64,000 bases of DNA from positions 1 through 64,000 of the forward strand of contig JAUIJE010000017.1 of assembly GCA_030431455.1 (NCBI GenBank), given 5' to 3'. Numbering within the stretch: the stretch's first letter is position 1; each line of letters starts with the position of its first letter. Below are positions 50,104-60,087 of this stretch, one piece after another. A model generated the notes under the pieces. The model did no database searches. It was not told the DNA's origin and was given only the letters and a program-made list of their open reading frames with translations. A program made the translations under genes and the position numbers. The DNA is from a bacterium. GTDB taxonomy: Bacteria; Myxococcota; UBA727; JAUIJE01.

Positions 50104-51390
50104 TCAGGGCCCCTGGATGAGGGGGTGGGCCCGCAACACCGCCGCCTGCCCGTCGGTCAGATCGGTGAAGTCATTGGAGATGAAATACATGAGGTTTTGC
50201 AGGACCGCGGGCTCCTCTTCGGGGGTGTCGCTGACGATGTCGAACACATCGGTCTGGGTCGGCCGGCTGCGCTCCTGGGTGTGAAACAGCCCCAGGGCGT
50301 GGGACACCTCGTGGGCGATGATGTTGCCGAGTTGGCCGGGTTGGTCGTCGAAGAACGACCGGGCCACGGCCACGCCCCCATTGGCATTGGCGGCGAGGGG
50401 CCAAGCCGCGGGGATGCCCCCCGAGATGCCGGCGATGCCCGGGCCCACGTCGAAGCCGCCGATGGTGCAGGAGAAGGCTTCGACGATGAACAGCTGGGCG
50501 GTGGGGCGCGCCGGCGCGGGGGTGGTGGCGAACAACGCGGAGAGATCGGCCCCGTCGCAGGTCTCGTCCGCCAATGTCACTGTGTCGAAGGCGGGCATGT
50601 TCAGGTCTTGGTACACGAGGTCGTCGACGACGATGCCGGCCTGGCCGAACACCTCCCGCACCCTTTGTTCGGCCGCGGCCCACATCGGGTCGGTGGGCGC
50701 GCTCTGGGCGTCGAGCAGCGGGGTCTGGAACGTCACCGTGAGGTGGAGGGTGCGGGGGGTGCCCGGCGCCAACTTGGGCTTGAACACCGCGGCGACCCGG
50801 ATGGGCAACGACGCGGGCACCGGCTCGGCCCCCACCGCTTGAAACACCCCGATGCGGGCCCGGTAGGTCCCGGGGGCGAACAGCACGTCGGGGGTGTTGG
50901 GCAACAGGTACGACAGCGTGCCCCGCTGCACCAACGCCCGCGCGGGGGAGAACAGCTGGGCCGGGAAGCCGCGGGCGGCGGTCACGTCGGCGTCGAGCAG
51001 GTCGTCGGGGGGCGTGTCGGTGACGTAGACCTCGCCGCCGGGGCCGGTGACGGTGACGGGAATGAGAAACGCGTTGGGCGTGGTCTGGGCGAGCAACAGC
51101 ACGCTCTCGGTGTCGTCGTCGACGGTGAGGGCGATGTCGACGCCGTCGCCGCTGCGGACCGCGTCGAGTTCGACCACGCGCCACGGGGCGGTGTCGTCGG
51201 GCCACTCGAAGAGGAGGTCATCGCCCGCGGCGGGGGCAGGATCGTTTTCGTACACGAGCAAAACCGGCTCAGGCTCGAACCCACCGTCGGGGTCCGCCAC
51301 CCCGGCGTCGTCGTCGATCGGGCCGGCCGGGCCACAGGCGGCCACCGCCCCCGCGACGACCCCCAAAAGGACCTGCACCCGCCACGTCAT
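50104..51390 (-). CDS. Metzincin-type metalloprotease lipoprotein
   Basis: The 428-residue lipoprotein starts at ATG 51390, with the lipobox GAVAACG. A beta-sandwich region (residues ~30-200) precedes the protease domain. The zinc motif HEVSHALGLFH (around residue 360) has the metzincin HExxHxxGxxH form, preceded by QLGNIIAHE. A downstream Met in QNLMYFISNDFTDLTDGQ is the Met-turn candidate, and the C-terminal DLTDGQAAVLRAHPL helix matches M43/'matrixin-like' proteins of Myxococcota. It likely faces the periplasm or surface. A strict-like loose motif lies at 50572. The 56-bp gap to the upstream gene holds nothing else. Confidence 0.87.
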   Translation of the reverse strand: MTWRVQVLLGVVAGAVAACGPAGPIDDDAGVADPDGGFEPEPVLLVYENDPAPAAGDDLLFEWPDDTAPWRVVELDAVRSGDGVDIALTVDDDTESVLLLAQTTPNAFLIPVTVTGPGGEVYVTDTPPDDLLDADVTAARGFPAQLFSPARALVQRGTLSYLLPNTPDVLFAPGTYRARIGVFQAVGAEPVPASLPIRVAAVFKPKLAPGTPRTLHLTVTFQTPLLDAQSAPTDPMWAAAEQRVREVFGQAGIVVDDLVYQDLNMPAFDTVTLADETCDGADLSALFATTPAPARPTAQLFIVEAFSCTIGGFDVGPGIAGISGGIPAAWPLAANANGGVAVARSFFDDQPGQLGNIIAHEVSHALGLFHTQERSRPTQTDVFDIVSDTPEEEPAVLQNLMYFISNDFTDLTDGQAAVLRAHPLIQGP

Positions 51391-51446
51391 GTTCGGATTG
51401 TGCCCGTTGCGCCCCCCCGACGCACCCCCGAAACGGCGGCCCGCAT

Positions 51447-51794
51447 TTACATGTCCATCGCCAAGGCGTCCGCCGCCGACGCGAGGATGCCGGGAATCTG
51501 TGCCTCCCGCGGCGAGGGGTTGGTCCACAACAGCAGGTAGTAGCCATCCTCGAGCAGCTGCAGCCACATCACCTCGCCTTTGGTCTTGACCCGGGCCACC
51601 AGCCGCGGCCCCTGGTTGCGCAGCTGCGGAATCAGCGACGCGAAGGACGCGCCCCGGATGTCGAGGTCGAAGGGGTCAATGCCCGCCTCCGCCACGTGGG
51701 CCCAGACCCGCTCGCCTTCCTCGTCACAAAAAATCGCCCCCTTGAGGCTCTCCACCTCGCTGGCGATGCCCTTGAGGATCGCGCCGAGCGGCAT
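51447..51794 (-). CDS. Roadblock/LC7-like protein
   Basis: The 115-residue protein (start ATG 51794; an upstream in-frame ATG at 51812 is possible) has the alternation of Roadblock/LC7 modules: LKGIASEVESLKGAIFCDEEGERVW, then GASFASLIPQLRNQG, then VARVKTKGEVMWLQLLEDG and YYLLLWTNPSP. In Myxococcota such modules act with small GTPases (as MglB with MglA) in polarity; no GTPase gene is adjacent. It diverges from the HSP90-like/transglutaminase pair, whose start is 58 bp away, so the two may be jointly controlled. Confidence 0.6.
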   Translation of the reverse strand: MPLGAILKGIASEVESLKGAIFCDEEGERVWAHVAEAGIDPFDLDIRGASFASLIPQLRNQGPRLVARVKTKGEVMWLQLLEDGYYLLLWTNPSPREAQIPGILASAADALAMDM

Positions 51795-51851
51795 GGCCCA
51801 TCTTCCGCCCAAACCCCCGCGGGCTCAAGTGTTCGCTGGTATTGTCCCCGG

Positions 51852-54668
51852 GTGCCGGCAGCAGAACACCCCGGGGCCGCGGCGGAGTTTTTTCGCCGCG
51901 CCGGCCAGGAGGCCGAACGCTACGGCGGCGACCCCCTGATCTTTCTGCGCGAGCTCGTGCAGAACAGCCGCGACGCCGGCGCCGGCACCATCGCGTTCGA
52001 GACCGCGCACGACGGCGATGACTTCGTGCTCTCGTGCACCGACGACGGCCAGGGCATGAGCCAGGCCGACGTCGAGCGCTACCTGTTCCGCTTGTACTCG
52101 TCGAGCAAAGGGCAAGGCCGGGCCGGTCGCTTCGGGGTCGGGTTCTGGTCGGTGTTGCGGTTTTCGCCGCACACCATCCGCATCGAGTCCCGCTCCGCCA
52201 CCGCGCAGGTGGCGTTCGAGGTCGACGTGTCGCGCGGCGCGGTCACGCTGTTGCCCCCGCCGCGCCTGGCCCACACCGGCACCCGCATCACCCTGCGCCG
52301 GGCGTACGATCCGGCCCTGTGCGACGACGAGCGGCTGCGGCACACCCTCACCGTGAGCGCGGGCGCGGTCACCGCCCTGCCCCCGCGGCGACGTCCCCAG
52401 CTGCGGTTCAACCAGGCCGCGGTCAACCGGCCCCTGGCCCCCCGGGGGGTCTACGCGCGCCGGGTCAAGACCCCGCGATGCAATGGCTTTGTGGGGGTGG
52501 GACCACAGCCGAGCATTCGGCTGTACAGCTTTGGGCTCTTCGTGCGGGAGGCCAAGAGCCTCGACGAGCTGCTGCCCCACCGGGCGGGGCTCGAAGGGCC
52601 CACCCTCGGCCTGTTCCCGGTGGCGGACATCAACGCCGACGGGCTCGACGTGTTGCTCGACCGGTCCCGCCTCGGCGAGGACAAGGTCCTGCACGACGTG
52701 GTCGAGGTCGTCACCCGGCGGGCCGCGGCGGCCCGGCTCGAGGTGTTGCACGAGGTCGCGCCGCTGCCCCTGGCCACCCGGGTGGCGCTGTGGGCCAAGA
52801 GCCAGGGCACGTCCCGGGTGGTGCTGTTCGCGGGGGGCCTGCTGCTCGCCCTCGTCTTGACCGTGGCGCTGGCGTCGCGGTTTCGGGTCGCGCCCGGGGG
52901 CGCCAGCGCCGCGCCGCCCGGGGCGGTCACCGACAACGGCGACGACGACGACGTGACCGCGCCCCCCCGGGAGGTGCGCGCGCCGCGGCCGGTCGACGAC
53001 GCGGTCGATCCCCTGGCCGGCCCCGTGATCAATCCGCCCGAGGGGCCGGCGGCAGGCTGGGACATCACCTACGAAGGCCCCGACCGGCCGTTTTTCAAGA
53101 CCGCGACGTTGGCCCGCTACGACCGGATGCGGGGCCTGGTGGGCGAGCCCCCGTCGGACGAAGGACCCTACCGGTTCCTCAAGGCCGGCACCGACCCGGT
53201 GTACATCGTGCGCCTCGGGGTCGTGCCCTCCCGCCGGCCGTTGGTCCTCCCGGTGCCGTCTGGCCACCGCGTCATCGCGCAGTCCCTGGCCTACACCGGC
53301 GAGGGGGCGCTCCGGCTGCGCCGCACCCCCCACGACGAGCCCCTGCTCGAACGCGGGGGGCTCTCGGCCGGGGTGCTCACCTACCGCACCGCGCCGGGGG
53401 GCCGGGTCCCGGTCGAAGCCGGTCTGCGCGAGGGCCCCGCGCGGGTGGGCGGCCCCTTTGCCCGGGTACTTCGAAAAGTGCGCAAACAACGAAGTGAACG
53501 CCGGGTGGCCGCGATCATCGACGCGGTCAAACAACACGTGCGCTACACCACCGACCCCCTCGACGCGGCGTTGTTCGCGCGGTCCGCGCGCCCCTTTGTC
53601 CAGCGGGTGACCGACCTCGGCATCGGCGACTGTGACGTCATGAACGGCATGACCGTGCTGCTGCTGCGCCGGGCGAACATCCCCGCCCGGCTGGGGGTGG
53701 GATTTGTCGGCGAGGCCGGCGAGGTCGCGAGCGACCTGCACGCCTGGACCGAATACCACCTCGGCGGCGTGTGGCGGACGGTGGATGTGTCCCCGCCGCA
53801 GTTCATGCCCACGGTGCCGAGCACGCCGGTGGGCCGGGCGGGGCCTGCGCCGGGGGGCGACGACGACGACGTCCGCGGGGAAGACGGCCCCGGGACGGGG
53901 GCGGAGCCCGACGACGGGAGCGTGCCGGGCCCGGCGGAGACGATCGCCCCCGAGGCCCCCGGGGGTCACGATTCGATGATTGTGTATCTATCAAAACAAA
54001 CCGTGTGGGGGATCGGCCTCGGGCTCCTGGTCCTGCTCGGCGCCGGGGGGTGGTGGTTGGGCCGGCGCCGCGCGCCGGGGGGCGCCGGCCTCGACGACTG
54101 CGCGGTGGCGTTGATGGACCAGGCCCTGTCCGGGGCCGAGACCGGTCTGGCCCTGCGCCGGCGGCCATTTTTTCTCGCCCTGTCCGGCAAGCGCCTCAGC
54201 CTCGAGCAGCTGGTGGACATCGCCGCCACCCGCGACCTGGTGTGCGCGGCGCCGGGCGACGACCTCGCCGCGCGGGTCGAGGGACCGGTGCTCGACGTCA
54301 GCGACCCCCGCTTGGCCCCTCTCCTGCCCCGGCTCCCGGCCACCCTCGACCTCGCCCGGGCCCCGCAGCTGCGGGGCCAGGGCCCGGCCCCGGCGGTGCT
54401 CGGCCGCGTCGAGGCCCGGTTGCGCCCCGCCTTCGGCCCGGTGTCGCTCAACCTCGCCCCCGGCGCGGGCGTGTCCGGCTACGCCGTCGTCGTCGACGGC
54501 GCGCCCACCCACGTGGTGGTGTTGGGCCACGACCACCCCACGGTGCGGGCCGCCCTCGCCAGCGATGACGACGTCACGCTCCTCGACACGGTGCTGACCC
54601 ACACCACGTTGGCCCTCGCCGACCGGGCCGGTTGGCGCGCCCACTTTTTGCGGGAGGCGCTGTCGTGA
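51852..54668 (+). CDS. Transmembrane HSP90-like ATPase fused to transglutaminase-like domain
   Basis: The 938-residue protein from GTG 51852 has an N-terminal GHKL ATPase of HSP90 type: LRELVQNSRDAG with Glu34 and Asn38, TDDGQGMS (64-70) and GRFGVGFWS (92-100). TM helix 1 lies at ~323-343 (VVLFAGGLLLALVLTVALA). Residues ~345-715 form a presumed periplasmic part whose C-terminal half is transglutaminase-like: LGIGDCDVMNG (Cys594), SDLHAWTEY (His630) and RTVDVSPP (Asp645). TM helix 2 is at ~717-736 and a ~200-residue C-terminal domain follows. With N-in topology the ATPase and C-domain are cytosolic and the Cys-His-Asp triad periplasmic. The stop overlaps the partner gene's GTG by 4 bp. I know no described protein with this order. 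Confidence 0.83.
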   Translation: MPAAEHPGAAAEFFRRAGQEAERYGGDPLIFLRELVQNSRDAGAGTIAFETAHDGDDFVLSCTDDGQGMSQADVERYLFRLYSSSKGQGRAGRFGVGFWSVLRFSPHTIRIESRSATAQVAFEVDVSRGAVTLLPPPRLAHTGTRITLRRAYDPALCDDERLRHTLTVSAGAVTALPPRRRPQLRFNQAAVNRPLAPRGVYARRVKTPRCNGFVGVGPQPSIRLYSFGLFVREAKSLDELLPHRAGLEGPTLGLFPVADINADGLDVLLDRSRLGEDKVLHDVVEVVTRRAAAARLEVLHEVAPLPLATRVALWAKSQGTSRVVLFAGGLLLALVLTVALASRFRVAPGGASAAPPGAVTDNGDDDDVTAPPREVRAPRPVDDAVDPLAGPVINPPEGPAAGWDITYEGPDRPFFKTATLARYDRMRGLVGEPPSDEGPYRFLKAGTDPVYIVRLGVVPSRRPLVLPVPSGHRVIAQSLAYTGEGALRLRRTPHDEPLLERGGLSAGVLTYRTAPGGRVPVEAGLREGPARVGGPFARVLRKVRKQRSERRVAAIIDAVKQHVRYTTDPLDAALFARSARPFVQRVTDLGIGDCDVMNGMTVLLLRRANIPARLGVGFVGEAGEVASDLHAWTEYHLGGVWRTVDVSPPQFMPTVPSTPVGRAGPAPGGDDDDVRGEDGPGTGAEPDDGSVPGPAETIAPEAPGGHDSMIVYLSKQTVWGIGLGLLVLLGAGGWWLGRRRAPGGAGLDDCAVALMDQALSGAETGLALRRRPFFLALSGKRLSLEQLVDIAATRDLVCAAPGDDLAARVEGPVLDVSDPRLAPLLPRLPATLDLARAPQLRGQGPAPAVLGRVEARLRPAFGPVSLNLAPGAGVSGYAVVVDGAPTHVVVLGHDHPTVRAALASDDDVTLLDTVLTHTTLALADRAGWRAHFLREALS
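52481..52493 (+). repeat. Loose iterated motif CAATGnnnnTGTG
   Basis: CAATG-GCTT-TGTG inside the HSP90-like gene, encoding Cys-Asn-Gly-Phe-Val. It matches the short form CAATGnnnnTG. Confidence 0.55.
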
Positions 54669-55999
54669 CCCAGCTCTCCGTCGACCTCGGCCTGGCCATC
54701 GAGCGCATCGGCACCCGGCAGCACCTCAACGACGTGCACTTCACCGTGCAGTTGGTGCGCCAGGCGCTGCGGGCCGGCCCCGGGCGCATCGAGCTGTCGA
54801 GCCGGCGCCGCACGTTCACGCTCGAGCACGACGGGGCCGCGTTCTCCGCGGACGAAGCCGACGCCCTGCGGGTGCTGTTCGCCGAGGTGCGCGACCCCGC
54901 GGCGGTGGACGCCGCCCTCGTGGCCCTGGAGCAACAACACGGCATCACCCTGCTCGGGGCCGCCCTGGGCGACGGGGGCGTGGAGGTCCACAGCGCGGTG
55001 AGCTTCGCCATCCGGGGCGGGCGCTTTTCCCCGTTGCCCACCGCCCGCGCCGGCTGCCGCATCGTGGTCCACCGGCGCCGAAAGTCCCGCCGGCGGGAGC
55101 GGGCCGAGCTTCGCTTTTATTGCCGCGACGCCCGCGTCCCCATCGTTCTCGACGGGCGCGCCCTCAATCCCCGCCCGAAAAGCGCGCCCCCCGACGATGC
55201 CCTCGCCGCGCACACGCTCCCCCCGGGGCCGATCCGCGGCTGGCTGGCCGTGCCCCGGGACGGGGACTCGTCGACCACCCGCTACTACGAAAACGGCGTG
55301 TACTTCGGTGTCCGCCGGGCCGTGCACCACAGCCGCATCCCCCTGGACGCGTCCGTCGACCACGAGACCACGGTGTTCGACCCCAACTTTCGCCAAGCCG
55401 TCCGCCGCAGCCACCGTGCGATCAGCGAACACATGCCCGGGGTCTTGGCCCGGCTCGACCCCGCGGCCCTCGACGAGAACGCCCGCCGCCGCACCACCGC
55501 GCTGCTGCTCCGGGCCATGGACCGCCTGCCCCCGAGCGCGCACGCTCTGCCCTTTTTGCCCAGCCAGGACGGCCACACCCTGAGCGTGGATGACATCCAA
55601 CAGCTCGCCGACCGCTATTCCCTATTGCCCTATGTGCCCGAAGGCAGCGCGTTCGACGGGCCCGGCCGCTGGCCCACCCTCACCCCCGAACGCGCGGGAC
55701 AGCTCGCCCGGGCGGTGGGCACCACCCCCGCGATCCTGCGCGCGGCGCCGGCCCCGCCTCCCGCCCCGCCCCCGCCGCCCCCCGACGACAGCGCCGCCCG
55801 CGACCTCGTCGGGCGCCTCGCCGCCCAGGGCCACCGCCTCGAGGTCGCGCCCCCGGGCACGGCCCCGGCCCACGACCCGCGCACCCACGCCGTGCGTCTG
55901 CCCGCCGACCATCCCGACCTGGCCCGGGCCTCGGCCGCCCCCCCCGCCCGCATCGAGGCGGCCTGGGCGCTCGTCACCTTGGCCGCTCAATCGTCGTGA
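54665..55999 (+). CDS. Partner protein with degenerate HSP90-like N-domain
   Basis: The 444-residue protein starts at GTG 54665 within the last codons of the HSP90/transglutaminase gene. Its first ~60 residues follow the same pattern as the neighbour's ATPase (FTVQLVRQALRAGPGRIEL, RTFTLEHDGAAFS), but the catalytic Glu and Asn positions are Gln/Ala and DDGQGM is HDGAAF, so ATP hydrolysis is unlikely. Residues ~90-330 contain beta-strand-rich modules with many Arg/His (RRRKSRRRERAELRFYC, YYENGVYFGVRRAVHH, FRQAVRRSHRAISEHM). The C-terminus is Pro-rich. No signal peptide or TM helix is seen, so it should act in the cytosol with the ATPase side of its neighbour. Its last 26 bp overlap the convergent DUF255 gene. 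Confidence 0.75.
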   Translation: MTQLSVDLGLAIERIGTRQHLNDVHFTVQLVRQALRAGPGRIELSSRRRTFTLEHDGAAFSADEADALRVLFAEVRDPAAVDAALVALEQQHGITLLGAALGDGGVEVHSAVSFAIRGGRFSPLPTARAGCRIVVHRRRKSRRRERAELRFYCRDARVPIVLDGRALNPRPKSAPPDDALAAHTLPPGPIRGWLAVPRDGDSSTTRYYENGVYFGVRRAVHHSRIPLDASVDHETTVFDPNFRQAVRRSHRAISEHMPGVLARLDPAALDENARRRTTALLLRAMDRLPPSAHALPFLPSQDGHTLSVDDIQQLADRYSLLPYVPEGSAFDGPGRWPTLTPERAGQLARAVGTTPAILRAAPAPPPAPPPPPPDDSAARDLVGRLAAQGHRLEVAPPGTAPAHDPRTHAVRLPADHPDLARASAAPPARIEAAWALVTLAAQSS

Positions 56000-57818: not shown

Positions 57819-59855
57819 TTAGCGTCGACGGCGGCGCCGGGCAAACAGCAGCAGGCCCAGGAGCCCGCCCACCGAACTCGCGTCGGCCTGGGCACATCCG
57901 CCGTTGAGCTGCGCGTCACCGGCGGCGTTGGATTCGGGGGCGTCGTCGGCGGGACCGACATCACCCGGCGGGGCACCGGGGTCCTTGTCGTCGTCCGCGG
58001 GGGCGGTGGGGCCACCCGGCAAAGGCGCCCCGAGGTCCGGGGGGCCATCGACCACGCCCGGGTCGGGCTCGGGCTCGGCCGGGGACGGCTCCGGCTCACC
58101 CGGGGTCGGCTCCGGCTCACCCGGGGTCGGCTCCGGCTCGGTCACGGCGGTGTCGCACGCCACCGACAATGAATAGGCACCCGCGGCCGCTTCCCAGGGC
58201 TGGACCGCGATGCCGAGAATGTCGGCGGGGGCGGTGAGGCTGACCGATTCTTGGCCGGTGGGGGTTTGGCTCCCGCCGATCACGTCATCGTTGGTGCCGC
58301 CGGTGGTGAGGTAGAGGTCGAAGTCCTGGTCCGCACCGTCGATGGTGACGGTGATGTCATTGCCCGCGCCCACGTCGACCCGGAACCAATCGATGTCGCC
58401 CCCGGCGAGCACCAAGTCTTCGGTCTGGCCGCAGCCGATGAGGGGGGCGCCGTTGAACGCGTTGTTGGGCTCAAAGCCGTCGTCTCCGATGGGGGTCGGC
58501 TCGGGTTCGGGCACCGGCTCGGGTTCGGGCACCACGCCCCCCACCGTGTCGAGGGTCGCGGCCAGCAGGGCGTCGAGCTGCAGGGACACCTTGGTGTCGC
58601 AGCCGTTGCAGGGCACGCCGGTGCCGGCGAGGAGCCCGTTGATGTCGGCCCGGGTGAGGTTGGGGTTGATCGCCTGCATCAGGCTGATGGCTCCAGTGAC
58701 ATGGGGGGCGGCCATCGACGTGCCCTGGTACCACGCGTAGTCGCTGTTGCCCGGTCCCAGGGCGGAGAGCACGCCTTGGTTCTGGTTGCTCAGCTGGTCG
58801 CCCCCGGGGGCGACGATCTCCACCGAGGTGCCGAAGTTCGAAAAGCTCGACAGCGGCCGGCTCGCGCCCGGGCCATGGGCGGCGACGGTGATGACCCCGC
58901 TGCAGTTGCCCGGCGAGCCCACCGGGCCCGCGTCGTTGCCGGCCGCGGCCACGAACATCACGTTCTGGCCGTTGATGAAGTCGATGGTGTCTTGTTCAAA
59001 GCCACTGCATCCGCCGGGTCCCCCGAGGGAGAGGTTCATCACGCTCACGCGGTCTTCGACCGGGAGGTTGGGCACGCCGTTGATCGAGGCCCCCGCGAGC
59101 CAGGCCGAGCCCTCCATGATGTCGACGAGGTTGCCCCCGCAGCGCCCCAGCGCGCGCACGGTGACCAGACCCGCGGCCCAGTTGAGCCCGGCGATGCCGT
59201 CGCCGTTGTTGGCCTCCGCGAGGATCGTGCCCGCCACGTGGGTGCCGTGAAACGAGTCGCCCTGAAACCCAAAGCCACAGTCCGCGCCGTCTCCCGAATC
59301 AAAATACTCGGCGTCGCGGCCGTTGCCGTCGGCGGCCTGGTTGGCGTTGTCGATGAAGTCGTAGCCGTTGACGTCCCGGGCCGCGAGCTCTTCGTGGGTG
59401 CGGATGGTGCCGGTGTCGACGACGCCGACGCGTTGGGCCGACGTCCCAGTGGTGATGTCCCAGGCCGCGGCCGCGTTGATCACGTCCAGGTGCCACATCT
59501 GGTCAAATCCAGGATCATTGGGCACAGCGTAGGCCCGGTACCACCGGTTGTCGGTGGCGTCGCGCACCGCCGGGTCTTGGGCGATGGCGTGCACCGCGTC
59601 GAGGGTGCGGGCCTCATCCAGCGCGGGCTGCCCCGGCAAGGACACGTCGTAGATCGACCAGCCGAGCAACGACGGCCGCTGCTCGACGAGGCGGAAGCCG
59701 GTGCGGGCTTCGATGTCCCGCAGCGCGTCGGCCGCGTCGAGGCCCGCGGAGAGCTTGACCAAGGCCACGCCCGGCACCCGATCTTGGGGGGCGGCCCAGG
59801 AGATGTTCGCGGCCAGCAGCGTGGTCAGGACCAACATGCGCGCAGCGATCATCAT
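57819..59855 (-). CDS. Secreted subtilisin-family protease with MYXO-CTERM-like tail
   Basis: The 678-residue protease from ATG 59855 has a signal peptide (MLVLTTLLAANISWAAP) and an inhibitor-I9-like propeptide (~25-110). The S8 catalytic domain has Asp147 (GVVDTGTIRTHEEL), His203 (SFHGTHVAGTI), oxyanion Asn307 (AAAGNDAG) and Ser380 (QGTSMAAPHVTG). A PPC-type domain follows (DWFRVDVGAGNDITVTIDG). The C-terminus has Pro/Glu repeats, a Cys-containing segment (LNGGCAQAD), a hydrophobic stretch (VGGLLGLLLFA) and a poly-Arg end. That is the MYXO-CTERM-type sorting signal described in Myxococcota, where the tail is processed and the protein retained at the surface. Confidence 0.9.
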   Translation of the reverse strand: MMIAARMLVLTTLLAANISWAAPQDRVPGVALVKLSAGLDAADALRDIEARTGFRLVEQRPSLLGWSIYDVSLPGQPALDEARTLDAVHAIAQDPAVRDATDNRWYRAYAVPNDPGFDQMWHLDVINAAAAWDITTGTSAQRVGVVDTGTIRTHEELAARDVNGYDFIDNANQAADGNGRDAEYFDSGDGADCGFGFQGDSFHGTHVAGTILAEANNGDGIAGLNWAAGLVTVRALGRCGGNLVDIMEGSAWLAGASINGVPNLPVEDRVSVMNLSLGGPGGCSGFEQDTIDFINGQNVMFVAAAGNDAGPVGSPGNCSGVITVAAHGPGASRPLSSFSNFGTSVEIVAPGGDQLSNQNQGVLSALGPGNSDYAWYQGTSMAAPHVTGAISLMQAINPNLTRADINGLLAGTGVPCNGCDTKVSLQLDALLAATLDTVGGVVPEPEPVPEPEPTPIGDDGFEPNNAFNGAPLIGCGQTEDLVLAGGDIDWFRVDVGAGNDITVTIDGADQDFDLYLTTGGTNDDVIGGSQTPTGQESVSLTAPADILGIAVQPWEAAAGAYSLSVACDTAVTEPEPTPGEPEPTPGEPEPSPAEPEPDPGVVDGPPDLGAPLPGGPTAPADDDKDPGAPPGDVGPADDAPESNAAGDAQLNGGCAQADASSVGGLLGLLLFARRRRRR
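58069..58146. repeat. Tandem repeat encoding EPEPTPG units
   Basis: Three to four 21-bp units, coding for EPEPTPG-like repeats, form the linker between the subtilase PPC domain and its C-terminal sorting tail. On the plus strand they read as GGCTCCGGCTCACCCGGGGTC with small changes. Confidence 0.7.
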
Positions 59856-60087
59856 CGGAACGTCCTTTCGTTGCCGGGTACGAACCAAAAACCGCGCCAG
59901 GACGCCGTCTCGCTCCGCCGCATGGGCATGCGGGGGAGCGTGGGGGACTGTCCGAGCAACGCGGTTCATGGGGGAGATGGTCCCACCCAGCGAGGGCCGT
60001 TGACCTCGGCTGATCCGCGGGGTCGGACGATCGACCGAAGGGCTATGTAGGCGACGGTGTTACCTAATTGGGCGACGGAGGCTGACG

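Follow-up and report, generated by a model that had tools for sequence, protein, structure and literature searches.

How enzymes of the periplasm, a compartment thought to be free of ATP, are powered and timed is, to our knowledge, an open question. An HSP90-type ATP clamp physically joined to a periplasmic transglutaminase (TGase)-fold enzyme would answer the question of powering directly, and a composition of this kind, with an HSP90-like ATPase and an intact TGase triad on opposite sides of a membrane, had been proposed in a preliminary description of one gene, here denoted A, in the window, that is, the whole stretch of 64,000 nucleotides analyzed. Does this gene encode such a protein, and does the protein act alone? 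Gene A extends from a GTG codon at position 51852 to a stop codon ending at 54668 with 0 internal stops, is present as a single copy in the 7.7 Mb genome, and is followed by an overlapping gene, B. The domain order of A, as established by sequence analysis and prediction, is as follows:

51852..54668, plus strand: gene A, HSP90-like (GHKL)/transmembrane (TM)/TGase-fold/TM/cytosolic C-terminal region; 938 aa, GTG start
51852..52361, plus strand: GHKL/HSP90-type ATP-binding N-domain of A, residues about 1-170 (HATPase_c_3, hhalign with HtpG, invariant residues)
52362..52817, plus strand: HSP90 middle-domain-like part of A, residues about 171-322 (Foldseek matches to TRAP1/HSP90; Arg271)
52818..52874, plus strand: TM helix 1 (TM1) of A, residues 323-341 (hydropathy plus flanking charge across 11 homologues; modeled helix 320-343)
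53049..53816, plus strand: predicted periplasmic part of A, beta-rich domain and TGase-fold enzyme, residues 400-655 (Transglut_core; TgpA profile match)
54003..54059, plus strand: TM helix 2 (TM2) of A, residues 718-736 (hydropathy and charges in homologues; helix 707-740 in the model)
54075..54665, plus strand: predicted cytosolic C-terminal module of A, residues 742-938 (hhalign: paralogous to the C-terminal part of B)
54665..55999, plus strand: gene B, 444 aa, encoding a degenerate HSP90-like partner; GTG start, with a 4-bp overlap with the stop of A

Both active sites reported in the preliminary description were found where it had placed them. The GHKL boxes ELVQN (E34-L-V-Q-N38), DDGQGM (D64-D-G-Q-G-M69), and GRFGVGF (G92-R-F-G-V-G-F98) are present, with the ATP-site residues E34/N38, D64xGxG68, and G92..G97 of the N-domain intact, and the Pfam model HATPase_c_3 matches residues 32-125 above its curated cut-off (E=5.6e-11). 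The TGase triad, consisting of Cys594 (TGT 53631-53633), His630 (CAC 53739-53741), and Asp645, is likewise intact and lies in the loop between the two TM helices, one on each side, within a region (residues 545-645) that is matched by Transglut_core with E=4.3e-11 and 43.5 bits, against a cut-off of 23. The idea of coupling across the membrane had been made to depend on the N-domain folding as GHKL, and this domain both scores and folds as GHKL/HSP90. In particular, the A1 profile matches the N-domains of TRAP1 and HtpG in the PDB (best E=4.2e-8), and comparison of A with Escherichia coli HtpG using hhalign yields E=6.7e-13 over the N-domain. In the AlphaFold model of A (mean pLDDT 67), for which the relative placement of the domains is not meaningful because the pTM is 0.39, Foldseek matches to TRAP1/HSP90 extend over about 370 columns, that is, the N plus the middle domain. 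By fold, the modeled cytosolic part of A is an HSP90/TRAP1-type N-middle scaffold.

Several other features of HSP90 and of histidine kinases were searched for in the scaffold. The invariant Arg271 sits where the catalytic Arg of HSP90 is expected, in a motif (LDVVLSR) resembling the LPLNVSRE motif of HtpG that includes Arg336, with an alignment of the two residues that is not significant by sequence alone. PF00183, a model that includes the C-terminal dimerization domain, gave no match in A or B at E<=10, and no canonical HSP90 C-terminal dimerization domain was recognized. Nor was there a HisKA match or a phosphoacceptor His preceding the GHKL domain of A, which is N-terminal. When the whole genome was scanned with PF00183, matches were obtained only on contig C2, and none at A or B. 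The gene on C2 (460279-462327, minus strand, in genome G000; also L070:780-2828) encodes a PRK14083-like HSP90, named so by resemblance, which is the sole PF00183-related match in the genome and falls below the family cut-off; no canonical HtpG was found above the cut-off.

The topology of A is the point on which the opposite-side placement of the two domains would stand or fall. All 11 homologues have one hydrophobic segment before the enzyme and one after it; in three of them, an additional hydrophobic stretch corresponds to the helix following the catalytic Cys, within the enzyme fold. Averaged over the 11 homologues, the net charge per 20 residues is about +3.2 before TM1 and +0.6 after it, and about +1.2 before TM2 and +3.1 after it. 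Under the positive-inside rule, this charge bias favors an orientation in which the N-domain is inside, the TGase-fold domain outside, and the C-terminal part inside; the two catalytic domains are thus predicted to lie on opposite sides of the membrane, in agreement with the preliminary description, and the C-terminal ~200 residues are predicted to be cytosolic.

For the part of A predicted to be periplasmic, a phmmer search of the PDB with A alone returned nothing useful, but a profile of residues 400-655 gave a single credible match, to the periplasmic domain of TgpA (6g49, E=1.1e-6), which extends across both the beta-rich region and the enzyme. The periplasmic portion of TgpA has transglutaminase activity in vitro, and TgpA is critical for the viability of Pseudomonas aeruginosa (PMC3507681). 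A carries a TGase-fold Cys enzyme that may cleave, deamidate, or crosslink its substrate. The N-terminal TM domain of TgpA (TgpA_N, PF11992) has no match in A at E<=10, and only one TM helix precedes the enzyme. The possibility that A replaces TgpA in its host was rejected, given that a separate TgpA_N protein is encoded on another contig; in several other genomes with A and B, the TgpA_N match is absent or weak.

Homologues spanning most or all of A are found in relatives within the same phylum, and a Holophagae metagenome-assembled genome (MAG) (locus L002) also carries one, with 30% identity over residues 13-854. In the alignment of 11 homologues, which are 25-32% identical to the window protein and are all matched by both HATPase_c_3 and Transglut_core, residues E34, N38, D64, G66, G68, G92, G95, G97, R271, C594, H630, and D645 are invariant. 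The 12th complete homologue (L075) retains every one of these, as do the homologue fragments checked, wherever the positions are covered. Because these residues are invariant at such low identity, both active sites must be strongly constrained. With the catalytic residues of both domains invariant across deep divergence, the interpretation of A as a relic can be ruled out, in agreement with the preliminary description.

The conserved triad also bears on the direction in which a signal might pass. The topology of A is equally compatible with an outside-in sensor, in which the TGase-fold domain would meet or cleave an envelope ligand and thereby set the state of an A-B clamp that acts on a cytosolic client or partner, and GHKL domains of sensor histidine kinases are generally known to receive signals from periplasmic domains. 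A pure sensor, however, would have no need of a fully conserved enzyme triad, and no output domain (HisKA, receiver, or DNA-binding) was found in either A or B, so that we consider this arrangement unlikely.

The preliminary description included neither gene B, nor the C-terminal cytosolic half of A, nor the relation to TgpA. B is matched by no model of Pfam, NCBIfam, or PADLOC. Its structural model (mean pLDDT 74) is nevertheless most similar to the N-middle part of TRAP1/HSP90 (E=8e-13), and in the profile alignment its ATP site has been lost in six of six homologues: the catalytic Glu is replaced by Q or A, the Asn is gone, the first Asp of DxGxG is replaced by H or A, and the glycine lid is absent. 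The B profile matches the N-terminal part of A (E=1.4e-6) as well as its C-terminal part (hhalign E=6e-6, score 49.3, against a null maximum of 18.3 for 60 column shuffles), whereas the TGase part is not matched (0.34). Overall, the scores of B against the two flanks of A are 49 and 56, versus a best null of 18-21 with 60 column shuffles per region. By profile comparison, A is thus paralogous to B in its two flanks but not in the TM-TGase-TM cassette that they enclose. The conserved region that follows TM2 (residues 742-938) was also considered as a separate, unrelated domain, which was rejected because it matches the C-terminal part of B. Because B matches the flanks of A and has lost its ATP site, A is, at the level of sequence, an HSP90-like scaffold into which a TM-TGase-TM cassette has been inserted, and B is a dead twin of A that lacks this cassette.

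The joint occurrence of A and B was assessed in 193 genomes, an even sample of the phylum. In 13 of these, TGase-type A and B are both present, and neither is found alone in any; according to the B profile, B directly follows A at each locus whose contig is long enough to include it. In 10 of 12 loci the two reading frames overlap by exactly 4 bp, and in L002 they overlap by 8 bp. Four further genomes listed in the survey, three of which were examined, carry a GHKL relative without the cassette. Cassette-less relatives at L073, L074, and L077 are contiguous proteins of 520 aa in which the N-part is followed by weak matches to the C-part of A, in the same order, which supports the insertion of TM-TGase-TM into an HSP90-like scaffold. 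A fortuitous gene fusion, with independent domains and no coupling, is made highly improbable by the fact that several other families and the Holophagae MAG have retained the domain order, the two active sites, and the gene for the partner.

Other paired GHKL genes were encountered in the course of the survey. Cassette-less GHKL proteins are encoded beside proteins of 1250-1940 aa, some of them cut by the ends of contigs or stretches, at L028:8314-15050, L040:2549-8894, L073:643-7715, L074:2-6194, L077:2-5304, and L035:8607-14848; these giant partners show weak matches to the B profile, repeated in places, and are degenerate GHKL proteins, and the one scanned against Pfam had no match. A related gene pair (L036:8059-12259, L037:1060-5180, L038:1138-5255, and L034:10938-14436, the last cut by the contig end) encodes a TGase-less GHKL protein with two TM helices and, downstream of it, another GHKL protein that ends in a zinc-peptidase-like HELAH motif, present in three loci, with a weak WLM match. 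The latter pair suggests that the pairing of GHKL proteins, with a link to proteases, is a broader pattern.

The genes surrounding A and B vary between lineages. Those in the window include a metallopeptidase, a DUF255 thioredoxin-fold protein, and a subtilase:

50104-51567, minus strand: metallopeptidase with the motif HEVSHALGLFH; weak astacin and M43 leptolysin matches
51447-51797, minus strand: small divergent gene beside A, by eye Roadblock/LC7-like
57819-59969, minus strand: subtilase with a PPC domain; glycine-leucine stretch and arginine run at the end

Searches of Pfam, NCBIfam, PADLOC, and the PDB gave no support for the Roadblock/LC7 assignment. The tail of the subtilase resembles the MYXO-CTERM type by eye, and no such model matched. 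At other A-B loci, genes for an SLT transglycosylase, a phasin-like protein, and a matrixin lie nearby. In three genomes, A is directly preceded by a gene for a membrane protein, X (about 514 aa; alignment A3), for which no match was found in Pfam or, by profile search, in the PDB, with OsmC-like and NTPase_1-like genes nearby:

L024:5000-6544, L029:3472-5010, and L031:6534-8459: membrane protein X, overlapping the start of A by 4 bp in two genomes and lying 3 bp upstream in the third

X is a possible third component in that family. A fixed three-gene operon is not supported, X being upstream of A in 3 genomes only.

The surroundings also speak to a role in conflict with phages, in which a GHKL protein would sense invasion and the TGase-fold domain would damage the envelope. 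The patchy distribution within the phylum and a weak match of the GHKL region to the PADLOC model TmtA (E=1.4e-11, residues 4-107 only) could be read in this way. However, the TmtA match reflects the shared GHKL fold only, covering positions 51-153 of a 1486-position model, and A does not attain the full length of Tiamat (TmtA; about 1400-1800 positions); the neighbors in the window, L002, and L022 are, by eye, ordinary chromosomal genes (adenylosuccinate-lyase-like, isoprenoid/phospholipid synthesis, and NADH dehydrogenase) rather than defense islands; and 72,556 plasmids contained no match. Accordingly, we regard a role in defense as very unlikely.

HSP90-type proteins are ATP-driven clamps of two subunits, and the strict pairing of A and B, with their overlapping reading frames, suggests a complex of this kind with one live and one dead half. 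Our preferred interpretation, to which we assign close to an even chance, is that A and B form one membrane complex in which an ATP-driven HSP90-like clamp gates the periplasmic TGase-fold enzyme. We infer its assembly, ATP hydrolysis, direction of coupling, reaction, and substrate as follows. A heteromeric HSP90-like clamp would sit on the cytosolic side of the inner membrane, with A providing the live ATP site and B serving as the dead structural twin, and binding and hydrolysis of ATP by A would open and close it. Because the cassette sits between two parts of the scaffold, movement of the clamp would shift TM1 relative to TM2 and could thereby turn the periplasmic Cys enzyme on or off, amounting to inside-out control; the switched enzyme may then cleave, deamidate, or crosslink an envelope protein.

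The linkers in the model of A (residues 343-402 and 650-716) have very low pLDDT, and such long, flexible connections could uncouple the enzyme from the clamp, which counts against tight coupling. The probable flexibility of these TM-enzyme linkers, along with the HSP90/TRAP1 N-middle fold of both A and B, would suit a different function, namely, that of an HSP90-type chaperone tethered to the inner membrane, the TGase-fold domain of which processes or crosslinks exported clients with no switching by ATP. We judge such a chaperone improbable: the canonical HSP90 C-terminal domain is absent, and the position of the cassette inside the scaffold, with both flanks matching B, suggests a mechanical connection, not a simple tether.

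Returning to the gated enzyme, we tentatively put forward, at somewhat less than an even chance, a transmembrane HSP90: a live/dead HSP90-like heterodimer that would spend cytosolic ATP to gate a periplasmic enzyme built as a scaffold-inserted loop. If this is true, we would know of no earlier HSP90-type clamp that works across a membrane, and the heterodimer would represent a new class of ATP-powered envelope enzyme; HSP90 biology would come to include a form that spans the membrane, carries an enzyme, and has a pseudo-ATPase partner, the latter belonging to a family for which Pfam, NCBIfam, and PADLOC offer no model. The preliminary description knew of no described system with this order, and in the literature searched, the coverage of which is incomplete such that absence is not proof, we likewise found none, nor any description of HSP90/GHKL-transglutaminase fusions or of B. 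The components are known, but their combination into an HSP90-based architecture that includes a dead twin appears to be undescribed.

With no PF00183 match and no TgpA_N, A can be filed neither as an HSP90 nor as a TgpA, although it resembles both. It shares with the HSP90 family (HtpG, TRAP1, and PRK14083) the Bergerat ATP site and the N-middle fold, the latter found also in B without the ATP site, and differs in that it spans the membrane, contains an inserted TGase cassette, and has an obligate dead paralogue. With sacsin and the bacterial sacsin-like GHKL proteins, the likeness is a near-threshold score of the GHKL domain of A on NF047352 (45.7 bits, cut-off 50); no J or HEPN domain was found in A, which, unlike these proteins, is a membrane protein with an enzyme. 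The cassette-less GHKL proteins with giant degenerate partners (L040, L073, L074, L077, and L028) share this scaffold, in contiguous form, and are likewise paired with a degenerate gene, but they lack the TGase cassette, and the partner is about 1250-1940 aa. TgpA (PA2873; DUF3488/TgpA_N plus Transglut_core) is, like A, an inner-membrane protein with a periplasmic TGase-fold Cys-His-Asp enzyme preceding the last TM helix, but where TgpA has five N-terminal TM helices (TgpA_N), A has the HSP90-like domain. TgpA genes often adjoin a gene for a MoxR AAA+ ATPase, which embodies a like idea, a cytosolic ATPase together with a periplasmic TGase, and control of a periplasmic TGase-fold enzyme by a linked ATPase is not without analogues. 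Finally, the LapD-LapG system offers a precedent for inside-out control, in which a TGase-fold Cys protease in the periplasm is governed by the cytosolic state from across the inner membrane (PMC4359373), although it does so with two separate proteins and with c-di-GMP in place of the GHKL ATPase.
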